Assembly: GCA_025062325.1 (NCBI GenBank)
Contig: JANXAL010000016.1
Location: 1 to 47,644 of the forward strand
Reading direction: 5' to 3'
Length of the DNA stretch: 47,644 nucleotides
Origin: Roseiflexus sp.
GTDB lineage: Bacteria > Chloroflexota > Chloroflexia > Chloroflexales > Roseiflexaceae
Every line of letters begins with the position of its first letter. The stretch's first letter is position 1. Below the pieces are notes generated by a model that made no database searches, was not told the DNA's origin, and saw nothing but the letters and a program-made list of their open reading frames with translations. Shown here in pieces: positions 41,427 to 47,557 of this stretch. A program made the position numbers and the translations under genes.

Positions 41427-42608
41427 CTACCACAATGTCAACTGCTCGGCGATCGGCGATTGGCGCATGTAATGCTGCAGACGGTCGCGTTCGTTCCTGC
41501 CGAAAAAGCGCCCGTTGAGCGTCACAAAATCGCGCGCACGTGCAATCGCCCCGCCGAGCGCCGCAAGGTGCGCCGGGTCGCGGAAGCGCCCCTCACGTCG
41601 CAGGCGCAGAATGCGCGCCACACTCACCGGACCTAACCCCGGCACCCGCAGGAGTTCATCGCGGTCGGCGCTGTTCAGTTCGACCGGAAACCGCTCGGGG
41701 TGCGCCAGCGCCCATGCGAGTTTTGGGTCGATGTGCAACGGCAGATTGCCCGCGTCATCGTAGGGCAACTCGCGCTGGTCGAAGCCGTAGCGCCGCACCA
41801 GCCAGTCGGCTTCGCGGAGGCGCTGTTCGCGTACAAATGGCGTTGGCGCGCACTGCTCCAGCGGCGTGCCCGCAACCGGTCGAAACGCGCCAAAATAGAC
41901 GCGCCGCAACCCCAGATCACGGTAGAGCCATGCGGTTGTCTGCAGAAGATCGCGGTCGCTCTCGCCAGCCGCGCCGACCACGAATTGTGTCGCAAGCCCC
42001 GCGCGAAAGGCGCCGGTCCGGCTCCAGTCGTGCGCCAGCGCCAGCGGCGCAATCAGGTCGCGCAGCCAGTCGCGCTCCGGCGAAATGCGCGCCAGGTGCA
42101 GCGCCGTTGGCGCTTCCAGGTTCAGGCTGATACGGTCGGCAAGGCGCGCGGCGCGCTCGATTTCCGCCGCGGGCGCGCCGGGCAACAATTTGACGTGGAT
42201 ATACCCGGTGTAGCCGTAGCGTGTGCGCAACGCTTCGACGGCATCGAGCATGCGCCCGGTCGCAGCAGACGGATTGCCATCGACGCCAGTGGAAATGAGC
42301 AATCCCTGCACGGTCTTCCGTTCGACGCGCGGCAGAAAGACGCGCGCCAGTTCGTCGGAGGTCAGTGCAGCGCGCGGTATGTCATTCCCGGAGCGCAGCG
42401 GACAATAGGCGCAATTCCATTCACAGCGGTTGCTCAGCAGTAGCCGGAAGACCAGCAACGCGCGCTCGTCGATGTCGGCATCGGCGACCACGGCGGCGTC
42501 GTTCCACCCGGTTGCCGGGGATGTCACACGGCGTTTCCCCAGGAACCGGTCACAAGCATCAAAGCGCGCCGCCAGCGCCAGAATGGCGAGCTTGTCGTCG
42601 AGGTCCAT
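41427..42608 (-). CDS. Radical SAM protein with helix-hairpin-helix, putative DNA modification/repair
   Basis: A 393-residue protein of the 'putative DNA modification/repair radical SAM' family. The 4Fe-4S motif is C62-EWN-C66-AY-C69. A helix-hairpin-helix near 325-345 (LLRVPGLGPVSVARIL) suggests DNA binding, and the end has NGRFFGRNERDRLQ. In many bacteria it pairs with a uracil-DNA-glycosylase-like DUF4130 partner, which is not adjacent here. A TATAAT lies eight bases before the ATG, so the mRNA may be leaderless. The reaction is unknown. Confidence 0.85.
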   Translation of the reverse strand: MDLDDKLAILALAARFDACDRFLGKRRVTSPATGWNDAAVVADADIDERALLVFRLLLSNRCEWNCAYCPLRSGNDIPRAALTSDELARVFLPRVERKTVQGLLISTGVDGNPSAATGRMLDAVEALRTRYGYTGYIHVKLLPGAPAAEIERAARLADRISLNLEAPTALHLARISPERDWLRDLIAPLALAHDWSRTGAFRAGLATQFVVGAAGESDRDLLQTTAWLYRDLGLRRVYFGAFRPVAGTPLEQCAPTPFVREQRLREADWLVRRYGFDQRELPYDDAGNLPLHIDPKLAWALAHPERFPVELNSADRDELLRVPGLGPVSVARILRLRREGRFRDPAHLAALGGAIARARDFVTLNGRFFGRNERDRLQHYMRQSPIAEQLTLW

Positions 42609-42616
42609 AGAACGGG

Positions 42617-42622
42617 ATTATA
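42617..42622 (-). promoter_or_regulatory. -10 box of the radical SAM gene, leaderless layout
   Basis: TATAAT on the minus strand is eight bases before the ATG at 42608, so transcription would start at or beside the start codon. The -35 match (TTCATC, 18 bases upstream) is weak. Confidence 0.5.
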
Positions 42623-42639
42623 CCGCAGATCGCATTAGC

Positions 42640-43490
42640 AGATGAACATTCACCACACAATCCGGCATTCGCGCTGCGCCCGGCGCCTGAAGTCGCGGGC
42701 TACGGGATGCGAAGCCCGCCTGCGCGGGCTGGACCGGGCGATACCGGAGTATGTTCTCAAACTCCATAAGCCGCAGGCTACGGTTGCGAAGCCCGCCTGC
42801 CGGGTAATGTTCATACACCGCGCCCTAGGGCGCATGCGCGCCGGGCGTCAGCCTGCGCCGACGCTTTCCCGCCCGCGCAGGCGGGTGGCCGACCGGAGGC
42901 CCACAGGCGCGAATTACCACAGCGCGCCGCGCCACACGCTGTGCCAGCGGGTGGCCCGTCGGAGACCCACAGGCGCGAATTATGAGGATTTAGGAAACGA
43001 ATCCGGTAAATCCATGCTGCCGAGCCGCGCGTCCTTTGAGCTGCGGGCTAAAGCCCTTGCTCAGGACGTGGAAGCCCCGAAGGGACTTTCATGACCTCAG
43101 CCAGGGCTTCAGCCCGCAGCGCCCAGGAATGCCGGACTATTTTCTTAATCTTCATCATTTGTTGACTCGCTCATTTCGCCCTTTGCAAATCCAAACCTTT
43201 GCGCCTTCGTGTCATCACAAACGTTCAGCCCTTGCGCCTTGGTGTGACCGGCGCTATGCGACATTTCCCATACACAGCGCGCGATAGCGTTTCACCGGGA
43301 CTGTCGAGGTCAAGCGATGGATATAGAGCGGACAGGGTGCGTGTGATGATCTCGAAAAAGGCGGCTTCACTCATCATCGAGCGGACTGCGCACTGCGCCG
43401 GGACCCTGGCGGAGCGCAGGGGCGGAGGTTGTCGTGGAGTCAACCCATCTGTGCACATCCGTCTCAATCCGTGTTTATCCGTGTCCGCTT
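42640..43490. repeat. Gene-free stretch of dispersed repeats
   Basis: It holds several copies of 'gcgaagcccgcctg' type sequence (42700-42810) and a direct repeat ending CCCACAGGCGCGAATTA at about 42881-42917 and 42948-42984. A hairpin pair GCTGCGGGCTAAAGCCCT and AGGGCTTCAGCCCGCAGC lies near 43039-43120. Further items are 'TTTGCGCCTTCGTGTCA' pieces near 43200-43245 and a CACGGATTGAGACGGA copy near 43459. A short minus-strand frame near 43255-43380 (starting MMSEAAFFEIITRTL) could be a gene remnant, but I do not recognise it. Confidence 0.6.
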
Positions 43491-43721
43491 CTACAACCTG
43501 TCCAGGTGAAAATCCCGCTCGTCGTCCTTCACTGTCAGCCAGGTCAGGAATGCGCCAATTTCCCTTGATCCCATCTCGCGCGGATGGCGCGGGTGGTGAA
43601 AGCGGATAAACCGGCGCACCCATCCGAGGTACGCCTCTTCGGTGCGGAGCGATCAGCGCTTGCAGTGGAGCGCGCTGCGGACCTGATCGAGCAGTTTTGG
43701 CGGTCGGCTGGAGGATGACAT
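43491..43721 (-). pseudogene. Truncated integron-integrase (IntI-type tyrosine recombinase) relic
   Basis: From the ATG at 43721, the frame reads PPKLLDQVRSAL, then an in-frame TGA at 43653-43655, then [20 protein letters not shown] and [16 protein letters not shown] before stopping at 43491. This matches the N-terminal DNA-binding (core-binding) domain of integron integrases (compare IntI1 '[34 protein letters not shown]'). The catalytic domain with the R-H-R-Y residues and the IntI-specific insert is missing, so the product would be inactive. It reads away from the cassette-like genes, as intI does in integrons. A XerC-like recombinase is the alternative. Confidence 0.8.
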
Positions 43722-44077
43722 GTGAGGAAACCGCTTTACATCGAACATGGAGCGATCTATACTTGTCGCAACGATGTACCGCGCATCGCGCGCGCAAATG
43801 ATATGGCTTCGTCGCACCCATGTTTCAGGGGCAAAGGCTATTCGCCTATCAGGGTGCATGCGACAACAGGCGGACGAATGGCAGCCGAGCGCCGCAAAGA
43901 GTGGGATGAGATGGGCAACTGTAACACGGTGCAAACAGGAATAGGCGGACGAATGGTGGTCGAACACCGCGCAGGGCGGGATGAGACGGACAGCTATCCG
44001 TTAATATGGTGCAGGCGGGAATAGGTGGATGGAGTCGGTCTACTTCTTCATGTTAGGACGTCAGGAAGGATCTACGC
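43722..44077. other. Region between intI relic and first cassette, diverged tandem duplication
   Basis: Two diverged copies of an ~80-base unit starting AGGCGGACGAATGG occur at about 43868-43946 and 43944-44022, with a partial third start near 44020. In integrons this interval carries attI and its direct-repeat integrase sites. No inverted-repeat attC was recognised here, and no gene is supported. Confidence 0.5.
44052..44058 (+). other. Candidate recombination core (attI or cassette junction)
   Basis: GTTAGGA matches the integron core GTTRRRY at six of seven positions. It lies 26 bases before the first cassette ORF. The attC core at 47551 lies 21 bases before the next ORF, so the spacing agrees. 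One short motif is weak evidence alone. Confidence 0.3.
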
Positions 44078-44961
44078 ATGAGTCATAGTGGACAGCCATT
44101 AGCAGAGGTCTTCGGTCATCTGGTAACAGACCAAACCGACACAGCGAGACGCTACCGTTCTCATCGCCTTTGCCCATTTAATAACAAGGTGCCAAATTGT
44201 ACAAAAGACAAGGCGAAGAGTCCTCTTGGAGTGTGCAGTATCACGAGAATGAGCCTGTCATTACCTGTCCCGTCCGATTTCGCCAGGACTGGATTATTGC
44301 TGACCATGCTGCTTCTTTCTTTTTTCAAGAAGGAGCAAAATGGACTTCTCTAACTGAAGTACGTTTGAATGATGCCACTGGAAAGTCTGCCGGAAACATT
44401 GACGTGGTTCTCGTTGCCTATGACGATAGCGGAAAAGTCATTGATTTTGGTGCCCTTGAGATTCAAGCTGTCTACATTTCTGGCAATGTCCGTGAACCAT
44501 TTGAGTATTACATGAGCGATCCGCAAAGCAGAGCGTCAATGGATTGGTCTAAAGAGCCGAATTATCCTCGTCCCGATTACCTTTCATCGTCTCGAAAGAG
44601 ACTTGTCCCCCAACTAGTATACAAGGGTGGAATCCTGCATAGTTGGAAAAAGAAAATCGCTGTAGCACTGAACAGAAGCTTCTTTGCCACTCTACCCGCT
44701 TTGAAACAAGTCCCCAAAGGTGAGGCCGACATTACATGGCTCATCTATGATCTGAAGCTACACACCGAAGAGGATCCTGGGCCGGGGCGCTACTATCTCA
44801 CGAAGGTAGATGAAGTTTTTACTGAGTTTGAGCCTGCTTTGCTTTCGATCACCACTCCGCTGCCCGGAAAGATGGAGGATTTCATCAAGTTGCTTCAGGA
44901 AAAACTCGATGAGCAACTGGAAACTCCCCCAATGAACCAAACTATTGAGAGACCGTTTTGA
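44078..44961 (+). pseudogene. NotI-family Type II restriction endonuclease, frameshifted
   Basis: The first frame starts at an ATG with AAGGA nine bases upstream and reads LAEVFGHLVTDQT, RLCPFNNKVPNCTKDKAKS and PLGVCSI. Near 44242 one base appears lost; the other frame continues ENEPVITCPVRFRQDWIIAD, FFFQEGAKWTSLTEVRL and SAGNIDVVLVAYDDSGKV to 44961. The order matches NotI-type enzymes, including the four cysteines of the iron-binding fold (LCP, PNC, GVC, ITC) and the catalytic-looking E-VRL...GNIDVVLV block with LEIQAVY. The second frame alone (from 44197) lacks three of the four cysteines. The methyltransferase gene starts 3 bases after its stop. Confidence 0.8.
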
Positions 44962-44963
44962 TC

Positions 44964-45929
44964 ATGGCGACACAGAGACAGCTACCCTTGTTCTCTGAAT
45001 CTTCTGAGAATGCCACTCTGCCCTACCCGGTGAACGTTGCATCGGTTCCGCAGAGAAGTCCTTTTCGCTATCCTGGCGGGAAGACATGGTTTGTTCCGAC
45101 ATTCCGACGCTGGATAGCCAGTCTGAAAAACAGACCGCGTATTCTGATTGAACCGTTCGCTGGCGGCGGGATTATTAGCCTTACTGCCCTCTTTGAGAAT
45201 TTGGTTGAAAAAGTAGTTATGGTCGAGTTGGATGACGAAGTTGCAGCCGTCTGGGACACCGTTGTAAACGGTGATGCGGAGTGGCTGGCTAATCGAATCT
45301 TGACGTTCACGTTGACGAGAGAAGCTGTCGAAGAAGAGCTTCAGAAAACTCCAGCGAGCAAGAAAGAAAAGGCGTTTCAGACAATTCTGAAGAACCGAAC
45401 ACTGCATGGGGGAATACTTGCTGAGGGCTCTCGTTTCATAAGATACGGAGAGAACGGAAAAGGAATCGGTTCTCGTTGGTATCCGAAGACGCTTGCCCAG
45501 AGACTCATCAGCCTTAATCATATCGTGAATAGGATCGATTTCCGGTGCGATGATGGATTGAAAGTGATGATGGAGTTTGCTGGCCGCGAAGATGCAGTCT
45601 ATTTCATTGATCCTCCATATACTGCCGGTGGAAAGAAGGCAGGCAAACGGCTCTATAAACATCATCAAATTGATCATGAACATCTCTTTATGATATGCGA
45701 GTCACTTGTTGGCGATTTTCTGATGACATACGATGAGGCAGAAGAAGTAAAGGAAATGGCACGCAGGCATGGGTTTCAGATGCGTTTGATCCCGATGAAG
45801 AATACACATCACGCTAAAATGAGTGAATTAGTCATCGGGAGAGACTTGTCATGGTTTGATGAGCTGCCTCTCATACGAGAATCTGGAACCAGGTTTAGCG
45901 TAAAGAAAGCCAGGAAACAAACGTCCTAA
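44964..45929 (+). CDS. D12-class (Dam-like) adenine-N6 DNA methyltransferase
   Basis: A 321-residue methyltransferase that protects host DNA from the companion nuclease. The motifs are SPFRYPGGKTWF (motif X, about 32-43), EPFAGGG (AdoMet site, about 64-70) and DPPYTAGGK (catalytic DPPY, about 217-225). The order is that of the alpha/D12 class (Dam, M.EcoRV). The ATG at 44964 overlaps no upstream gene and is coupled to the nuclease stop (TGATCATGG). It methylates adenine, so the target must contain A and is not the NotI site GCGGCCGC. The gene is intact though its nuclease is broken. An IS element begins at the base after its stop. Confidence 0.88.
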   Translation: MATQRQLPLFSESSENATLPYPVNVASVPQRSPFRYPGGKTWFVPTFRRWIASLKNRPRILIEPFAGGGIISLTALFENLVEKVVMVELDDEVAAVWDTVVNGDAEWLANRILTFTLTREAVEEELQKTPASKKEKAFQTILKNRTLHGGILAEGSRFIRYGENGKGIGSRWYPKTLAQRLISLNHIVNRIDFRCDDGLKVMMEFAGREDAVYFIDPPYTAGGKKAGKRLYKHHQIDHEHLFMICESLVGDFLMTYDEAEEVKEMARRHGFQMRLIPMKNTHHAKMSELVIGRDLSWFDELPLIRESGTRFSVKKARKQTS

Positions 45930-46825
45930 GAGCATGATCGGAAACTATTCTCTCGGATAGAGACGATTTAGTAACATTGTCACCGAATCAAGATAGATGA
46001 ACACCTCACTCGATCCTGGATTGCGATTATATTCGCGACTTGTCAATCTATTGCGCCCAGCCCAGGCAATCGAGCGTTCCACCACCCAACGCTTCGGAAT
46101 AACCGCGCATCCTTTTTGTCTGATCGGTTTTTCGACAACGTTGAGCTGTATGGATGTATGCTGCGTGAGCCACCGATCGAACCCCGCTTGATACCCTTTA
46201 TCGACCCGAATCTCTTCCATCCGCGGAAAACAGGGATGGCGCTCGGTCAAGAGCCATTCCGCTCCTTCCGTGTTCGACCGGTCGGATGCAGACGCCAACA
46301 CCCGCAACAAAAGGCCGTTCGTATCAACCCAGAATTGACGCTTGCGCCCGTTGACCTTCTTTCCCCGTCGTCGTGCTCGCCGCCCGCTTCCGTTGTTTTC
46401 GCTGTTTGCAAGTCCAACACACCGATTGACGGCTCTTCGTCCCGACCAAGCGCGTTGCGCGCTTGTTTGCGCAGTGCGTCATTTATCCGAACAAAGGTTC
46501 CGTCACGTTTCCATTTGTCAAAAGAGTATCGAACTGCACGTATCGGCGGAAAATCCGCCGGAAGCGTACGCCATTGACACCCCGTGCGATTTTTGGAGAT
46601 GAGCGCATTCACGATCGCCCGCAGATCAATCTCGGTTGGACGACCGCCCTTTGGCGAAGACGTGGTGACGATCGGCTCAATCGCCGCCCATTGGGCGTCG
46701 GTCAGGCCTGTTGGCTCGTTGGTCGGGTAACAGCGGCGCTCACGCTTTGGCATGCTGTCCTTCTCCTCATCAGAACGCCATGATCGCCGCTATCATACCA
46801 CAAATCCGGGTTTCCGATCATGCTC
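45930..46825 (-). mobile_element. IS5-family insertion sequence, 896 bp
   Basis: Perfect 16-base terminal inverted repeats GAGCATGATCGGAAAC (45930-45945) and its complement (46810-46825) bound the element. It carries a transposase in two frames. The flanks are CCTAA on the left and TCATG on the right, with no target-site duplication, which suggests recombination between two copies and loss of the DNA between. It abuts the methyltransferase stop and cuts off the 5' end of an acetyltransferase gene. Confidence 0.9.
45945..46753 (-). CDS. IS5-family DDE transposase in two frames
   Basis: Frame A (46753 to about 46380) gives TNEPTGLTDAQWAAIEPIV, an insertion-domain helix, RTGCQWRTLPADFPP and GVLDLQTAKTTE with the first catalytic Asp. 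Near 46370-46380 (GGGGAAAG) the reading moves by -1 into frame B, giving GKKVNGRKRQFWVDTNGLLL, RVDKGYQ with the second Asp and VVERSIAWAGRNRRL-like residues with the Glu. Several IS5 relatives make transposase by programmed frameshifting, but the site here is not a textbook slippery heptamer, so an ordinary indel is equally possible. Confidence 0.82.
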
Positions 46826-47128
46826 TCATGCTTTTGCATCCGGCGCGGCTATCGAAGACGGGGCATCATGTCAGCTCTGATTACAGCGGCGTTGCAGGAA
46901 GCAAAGCGCGCCAATGCGCCTGCGCTTGAGGCGTATCCGGTTGACATGGTGCAACCAGGTAGTTCCTCCAACATTTTCACCGGCACAGTTTCAGCTTTCG
47001 AGCGTGCCGGATTCAAAATCGTTGCATGCCGCTTGCCGTCTCGACCGATTATGCGCCATGATCTGAAATCTGAATGGGATTACATTGGTCTGAGCGGCTA
47101 TGAAGCTATGGCTGAGACAGCGCAATGA
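46826..47128 (+). pseudogene. GNAT-family acetyltransferase, 5' end removed by the IS
   Basis: Starting at the IS edge, the frame reads CFCIRRGYRRRGIMSALI, the acetyl-CoA-binding motif A of GNAT enzymes (R-x-x-G-x-R/G-x). ALEAYPVD, SNIFTGTVSAFERAGFKIV and a terminal RPIMRHDL follow. Full-length relatives have about 100 more residues before this point. The apparent ATG at 46820 is in IS sequence. The stop overlaps the next gene's start (ATGA at 47125-47128). The remaining fragment is unlikely to be active. Confidence 0.82.
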
Positions 47129-47394
47129 ACTGCTTGGCTGACGAGAGCGTAGACCATCGGGTTGTCGACCGCCTGCGGCGCGATGGTCGTCAGGTGTGGT
47201 AGGTTGCGAAGATGGGGCCAGGAACCCCTGACGATGCAGTTTTGGCCCCGGCGAATCAGAGAAACGCCCTTCTGCTGACTGCGGATAAGGATTTTAGAGA
47301 GATGGTCTTTCGTCAGCAGCTTCATATGCACGGGACTGTATTGATCCATTTGGTGGGATTGTCGCCCAGTCGCACAGCAGAGATTGGAGCTTAG
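47125..47394 (+). pseudogene. DUF5615 PIN-like gene with a nonsense codon
   Basis: The 90-codon frame reads MNCLADESVDHRVVDRLRRD, then TAG at codon 26 (47200-47202) after QVW, then VAKMGPGTPDDAVLAPA, LLLTADKDFREMVFRQQ and HGTVLIHLVGLSPS to its stop. This is the DUF5615/PIN-like fold with acidic residues at D7-E8 and TADKDF. Such genes usually pair with a DUF433 antitoxin as toxin-antitoxin modules. Here the partner position is taken by the acetyltransferase remnant, with an ATGA overlap. Relatives have Tyr or Phe where TAG stands. A restart at ATG 47212 would give only 60 residues. Confidence 0.8.
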
Positions 47395-47487: not shown

Positions 47488-47557
47488 GCCCAACACGCGC
47501 TTGCAGCCGACGCCGCTCCGCTGCGCTTCGCGGCGCGGCTGAAGCGGAGCGTTAGCT
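47488..47557 (+). other. Integron attC site (59-base element)
   Basis: R'' GCCCAAC (47488-47494, consensus RYYYAAC) and R' GTTAGCT (47551-47557, consensus GTTRRRY with one mismatch) bound an imperfect inverted repeat. The arms GCAGCCGACGCCGC and GCGGCGCGGCTGAAGC pair with unpaired bases, and a short loop TCCGCTGCGCTT lies between. The centre closely resembles the aadA1 attC (AAGCCGACGCCGC...GCGGCGCGGCTTAA). It lies 94 bases after the PIN-like gene stop, where a cassette's attC belongs. Confidence 0.8.

Follow-up and report, generated by a model that had tools for sequence, protein, structure and literature searches.

A NotI-family nuclease gene with a broken frame, its D12 methyltransferase gene and the remains of an integron in Roseiflexus

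In a contig of Roseiflexus sp., a nuclease gene of the NotI family, spread over two reading frames, is followed by an intact gene for a D12-class DNA methyltransferase. What kind of system do these two genes make up, how did they come to lie where they are, and what does the methylase tell us about the site recognised by the nuclease? The window, by which we mean the whole stretch of DNA that was analysed, is a complete contig of 47,644 bases belonging to a draft genome of 4.73 Mb in 143 contigs. The reading which we prefer, and to which we give a probability of about 0.8, is that of a type II restriction-modification (R-M) operon, made of a PF12183 nuclease and a D12 methylase, which was acquired as an integron cassette and whose nuclease has since been broken. 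The features of the locus are collected in Table 1.

Table 1. Features of the locus, with positions in the window (strand "." where no direction is assigned)
Feature	Position	Strand	Basis and remarks
intI remnant, 3' end (IntI residues 335-362)	43370..43453	-	tblastn, 57% identity to the intact IntI of G005
intI remnant, 5' end (IntI residues 19-105, one in-frame TGA)	43521..43781	-	80% identity to the intact IntI of G005
Presumed attI region	43782..44051	.	Suggested by alignment to the flank of the intact intI in G005
Cassette start GTTAGGACGTCAG, G^TT recombination core	44052..44064	+	Left boundary of the homology to G264 and G309, both of which have the identical motif
NotI-family nuclease, N-terminal frame	44078-44353	+	91 aa, of which ~54 homologous (to ~44238); Cys1-Cys3
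NotI-family nuclease, C-terminal frame	44197-44961	+	254 aa, homologous from ~44239; Cys4, catalytic D...ExQ; PF12183 E 2.3e-63
Frame break	44238..44239	+	4 nt absent compared with three relatives (DNA alignment)
D12-class DNA methyltransferase	44964-45929	+	Intact, 321 aa; ATG 44964, stop 45927-45929; FAGGG and DPPY motifs
ACGTCCTAA, the core of the cassette start (TTAGGACGT) inverted; presumed R'' (left end) of the cassette's attC	45921..45929	+	Suggested by the sequence; overlaps the methylase stop codon
IS4/IS5-family element	45930..46825	-	Terminal inverted repeats; DUF4096/DDE transposase frames; directly behind the methylase
Truncated GNAT acetyltransferase, probable remains of the next cassette	46820..47128	+	PF00583
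DUF5615 (PIN-like toxin) fragment, probable cassette gene	47212..47394	+	PF18480 E 1.2e-8
attC site (GCCCAAC ... GTTAGCT), extrahelical base	47488..47557	+	Strict scan score 28; bottom-strand hairpin -23.5 kcal/mol

The nuclease, the methylase and their pairing

The first-pass annotation of this DNA had assigned the nuclease to the NotI family, and the assignment is borne out. In an HMM search, the C-terminal frame alone matches PF12183 with 214 bits (cut-off 22), and this nuclease is the single match to the family in the draft genome. Four cysteines, together with a D, an E and a Q, are invariant across 12 aligned members of the family. In the window, the first three cysteines are found in the N-terminal frame, the motif of which reads MSHSGQPLAEVFGH...CPF...C...GVC, and the fourth one in the C-terminal frame; they make up a predicted metal site. 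The catalytic block reads GNID...LEIQ, and its LEIQ is aligned with the LEIQ of NotI. When a profile built from the relatives of the nuclease is run against the PDB, NotI is the sole match (E 1.6e-4). Likewise, the AlphaFold model of an intact relative, L009 (pLDDT 72), is matched by Foldseek to NotI at E 1.2e-7 and to nothing else at E < 0.001; comparison of this model with NotI gives a Z of 14.0 over 265 residues, the next fold reaching 7.1.

NotI itself (PDB 3bvq and 3c25; PF12183) shares with the window branch the Cys4 metal-binding N-terminal region, the D...ExQ block and the fold, but the identity is of about 13% and the nuclease of the window branch is shorter (about 295 aa against 383). 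A single-sequence search with the window's own nuclease did not recover NotI itself; one sequence taken from a branch paired with C5-cytosine methylases did so, at E 8e-5. The family assignment is sound, and the kinship with NotI itself is distant.

The methylase begins two bases beyond the stop codon of the nuclease. Its product matches PF02086 with 46 bits (cut-off 22, E 6.5e-12) and, together with the DPPY motif and the adjoining gene order, this match agrees with the earlier description of a D12-class methylase coupled to the nuclease. Against TIGR00571 (Dam) it scores 38 bits for a cut-off of 115, so that by the NCBI cut-off it is no member of the Dam family. Nor does it cluster with solitary Dam enzymes in the methylase tree: it falls in a clade with all the nuclease-linked D12 enzymes and with two enzymes that stand alone on plasmids, and this clade is distinct from Dam and from the other D12 enzymes of the same genomes (support 99/94). 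A second D12 methylase of the window genome (G000:C88:536-1255, L251) lies on the Dam side of the tree. The two apparently solitary methylases are encoded by a Bdellovibrio plasmid (L269:3025-3909) and by a Deinococcus plasmid (L270:2998-3939). We sought alternative nuclease partners there, and no recognisable nuclease was found beside the methylase in either plasmid neighbourhood. The Bdellovibrio gene is located behind a DNA polymerase III-like gene, and both enzymes are possibly phage-borne means of counter-restriction.

The pairing with a D12 enzyme had been taken for an anomaly, a view which has to be given up. PF12183 is present in 31 of 400 Chloroflexota genomes, and the high-scoring genes have a homologue of the window's D12 gene downstream wherever the fetched DNA extends far enough (in L024 it is upstream). 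A scan of 84,980 species genomes yielded 408 relatives of the nuclease, and among the best 80 of these the same D12 gene lies directly downstream in 76. Three of the four exceptions are due to the end of a contig; at the fourth one, L081 (5001-7892), which lies inside the D12-paired clade, we found a 670-aa N6_N4/DUF1156-like methylase with a TDPPY motif. The best 80 span about ten phyla (Chloroflexota, Cyanobacteria, Planctomycetes, Acidobacteria, Verrucomicrobia, Chlorobi, Nitrospirae, Proteobacteria, Deinococci, Armatimonadetes and others). Because the two-gene order recurs in most relatives, it is not the product of chance. Moreover, genes paired in this way already bear the RefSeq annotations "NotI family restriction endonuclease" and "DNA adenine methylase". 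The pairing is thus the norm in a very large clade, and the pair is of a common type, ordinary as a pairing. On plasmid pTbrSNM4-1c of Thermus brockianus, for instance, a pair has the same gene order as in the window, with a methylase 64% identical to that of the window and a nuclease about 60% identical to L009, the query used for the clade; unlike that of the window it is intact and plasmid-borne, and no attC was found near it.

The break in the nuclease frame

A frameshifted nuclease beside an intact methylase is what the first reading of the sequence had described, and the alignment confirms it: the nuclease has lost 4 nt at the junction of its two frames and the methylase frame is complete. 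The nuclease frame is uninterrupted at the break point both in the fragment found in G309 and in G147. The latter genome, which we take to be Chloroflexus aurantiacus, of the same order as the window genome, has an intact copy of the nuclease at about 61% identity, and intact relatives exist elsewhere; nuclease and methylase genes which are both intact and lie side by side are present in relatives and absent in the window. G264, presumably Chloroflexus aggregans and of the same order as well, has suffered a separate lesion of its nuclease, a 14-bp tandem duplication. (The complete comparison genome of the same genus is, we assume, that of Roseiflexus sp. RS-1.) Between the window and G264, dN/dS is 0.014 in the part of the nuclease before the break, 0.047 in the part after it and 0.109 in the methylase. 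The low values for the nuclease mean that both copies were functional until recently.

Six distinct loci of the fetched set have a broken nuclease (the window, G264, G011 by a nonsense codon, G036 by a deletion, and a further two), against one with a broken methylase; as this set is biased towards intact nucleases, the count of six is a minimum. This pattern fits the usual order of R-M decay, in which the nuclease goes first. Decay of the nuclease with retention of the methylase is supported, and the strong purifying selection before the lesion, together with the independent lesion of G264, upholds the earlier suggestion of a typical R-M decay. The split nuclease is presumably dead.

Purifying selection on both halves of the nuclease would equally be expected if the protein were still produced through programmed ribosomal frameshifting, or if the break were reversible by phase variation. 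Both frames are open on either side of the break, as a programmed frameshift would have it, and the breaks of two relatives fall within some 40 bp of one another. The lesions, however, are unlike (the loss of 4 nt against the duplication of 14 bp), other relatives are plainly intact, further copies are disrupted by a nonsense codon or by a large deletion, and there is no evident slippery run at the break. Programmed frameshifting was rejected on account of these differing lesions, and we consider either variant of the idea extremely improbable.

An error of assembly or sequencing, behind which the system would really be intact, is a more trivial explanation. A draft genome of 143 contigs and the strong constraint reaching as far as the break could speak for it, but a related genome in one contig has a broken copy too, and the clean loss of 4 nt lies outside any homopolymer, which is unusual for a short-read error. 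Such an error is therefore unlikely, and we retain a genuine, recent loss of the nuclease frame.

The integron setting

The integron context had been missed by the first-pass annotation and is an addition of the present analysis. Upstream of the pair and on the opposite strand lie two pieces of an integron integrase gene, between which residues ~106-334 are deleted; a TIGR02249 match at 43524-43694 supports this remnant independently. The window is 80% identical, from 43522 to 44056, to the flank of the intact intI of G005, a genome of the same genus, and the two diverge at CATGTTAG. The integron integrases of G005 (482 bits) and of G309 (472 bits) are intact, for a cut-off of 265. In G309, which belongs to another part of the phylum, the intact integrase and the same cassette are divergently oriented, and one other cassette and an attC separate them. 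In G264 and G309, two genomes of different orders, the start of the cassette is 99% identical at the DNA level over its first 192 bases; this identity is limited to about 190 nt by the end of the G309 contig. Two other genomes of the Roseiflexus group (G003:C1 at ~1.04 Mb, L314; G001, L320) likewise have integron integrases that are intact, and canonical attC sites lie close to them. Positions 42600-43160 and 43900-44050 of the window contain dispersed repeats, with dozens of copies here and in related genomes, and a degenerate tandem repeat upstream of the cassette.

For the attC sites we used a strict scan, which replaced a loose version of too high a background and which gives 4 matches in 1.92 Mb of control DNA (0.21 per 100 kb). 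Besides the site listed in Table 1, strict matches are found directly upstream of the pair in G264 and beside the pair in G309, and folding of the bottom strands gives, as expected for attC sites, a hairpin in which one base is bulged. In G264 the upstream attC is the only one. As for the attC of the R-M cassette itself, the window has only the presumed R'' half, after which comes the IS4/IS5-family element, of which many copies exist in related genomes.

Might the two genes be an ordinary chromosomal R-M islet which happens to lie beside an unrelated integrase relic, and no cassette at all? It is true that most members of the family elsewhere have no attC nearby. Yet the boundary of homology falls at the same GTTAGGACGTCAG core in three genomes, and this boundary adjoins IntI in one genome, attC in two and the intI remnant in the window. 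This explanation is thus very unlikely. Judging from the sequence, the pair is, or was, the cassette in first position of a chromosomal integron now degraded. With an in-frame stop and an internal deletion in its intI, which is intact in G005 and G309, the window has no functional intI beside attI, and the integron is probably no longer able to move the pair.

The history that we propose is as follows. A nuclease of the PD-(D/E)XK type would have worked with a D12 (alpha-class) amino-methyltransferase; by methylating the sequence which the nuclease recognises, this enzyme would restrict cleavage to foreign DNA lacking the mark. The two genes, which could presumably be excised as a circular cassette and moved by integrase-mediated transfer, would have been acquired and recombined into the attI of a chromosomal integron. 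The integrase would then have been lost through its internal deletion, an IS would have landed in or beside the attC of the cassette, and a recent deletion of 4 nt would have destroyed the frame of the nuclease; we list these three losses without temporal order. A solitary methylase is left. A cassette setting would explain how the pair travels between distant bacteria.

A paper of 2008 described integron integrase genes in Chloroflexi (PMC2426708), and R-M genes are stated as known among integron cassettes (PMC9892861). The window system is likewise cassette-borne but differs from these by its NotI-family R-M genes, its Chloroflexota integron and its degraded integrase. A limited literature search, which left aside REBASE and most subscription papers, brought up no report of a NotI-family R-M system in such an integron. 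The kind is already known, while this member and its setting appear to be undescribed.

The target site and the exchange of methylases

NotI itself cuts GCGGCCGC, a site without any adenine, and from this reference point it had been argued that the site of the present system, with its D12-class methylase, must contain adenine. Most characterised D12 enzymes do make N6-methyladenine (m6A), and the DPPY motif and the annotation as "adenine methylase" point the same way. It is reasonably probable that the target has an adenine, that the D12 enzyme makes m6A and that the specificity of the clade differs from that of NotI; this possibility bears on nothing but the target and leaves the rest of our explanation standing. 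Nevertheless the argument does not hold as a necessity, because M.CbeI and DmtB, which are annotated as D12-type or related to it and have the DPPY motif, make N4-methylcytosine (m4C) in GGCC (PMC3425538). The likeness of these alpha-class N4-cytosine methylases to the window enzyme is at the level of the D12 annotation and of the DPPY motif, and the sequence of the window methylase would suit m6A and alpha-class m4C alike. A specificity other than GCGGCCGC is plausible, as a candidate only.

The partners of related nucleases also weigh against the necessity of an adenine. The weaker PF12183 members of Chloroflexota adjoin N6_N4-type methylases with an SPPY motif, and many plasmid members adjoin a C5-cytosine methylase. 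Such C5 systems, found on plasmids of Xanthomonas, Pseudomonas and Cronobacter and on pBN5 of Paraburkholderia, have a PF12183 nuclease as the window does, with a C5-cytosine methylase where the window has a D12 enzyme. In the tree of the nucleases, the classes of methylases are clustered but interleaved. The clearest case is that of pBN5 (L122:2396-4754) and pEST4011 (L116:2974-5122), the nucleases of which are 82% identical over 339 residues: the partner of the former is a C5-cytosine methylase with Vsr, and the partner of the latter is a D12 methylase 50% identical to that of the window. It appears from these sequences that the chemistry of the methylase has been swapped among NotI-family nucleases. 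The nucleases of pBN5 and pEST4011 likely share one target and, if so, this target contains cytosine, so that the D12-paired nuclease would probably have a C in its site anyway.

A stronger version of this idea can be formulated, in which the nucleases keep a cytosine-bearing, perhaps GC-only target, protected according to the lineage by three kinds of methylases (D12 making m4C, C5-cytosine and N6_N4), the D12 enzymes of the window type being N4-cytosine methylases mis-annotated as adenine methylases. We put it forward tentatively and hold it to be rather doubtful. If true, it would mean that the nuclease stays the same while methylases of different chemistry replace one another beside it.

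The avoidance of sites gave no answer after controls, for an adenine target or otherwise. In four genomes whose pair is intact, no palindrome is avoided more than CGGCCG, the core of the NotI site (72 occurrences for ~683 expected). In a case-control comparison with Chloroflexota devoid of the pair, however, CGGCCG was equally avoided and no palindrome passed the correction for 64 tests, and we rejected this avoidance as evidence on the target. Chloroflexota in general strongly avoid CGGCCG and several other GC-rich palindromes, whether the pair is present or absent.

The locus is of moderate interest on two counts: nearly identical nucleases appear to have exchanged the chemistry of their methylases, and the pair is set in an integron. 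The first corrects a tempting inference, from a D12 methylase to an adenine in the site, which annotation pipelines make too, and nucleases 82% identical with two methylase chemistries are a natural experiment able to reveal the target quickly. The second would put R-M genes at the head of the cassettes in an integron of thermophilic (hot-spring-type) Chloroflexota, and would tie integrons to the spread and the decay of R-M systems beyond the usually studied proteobacteria.
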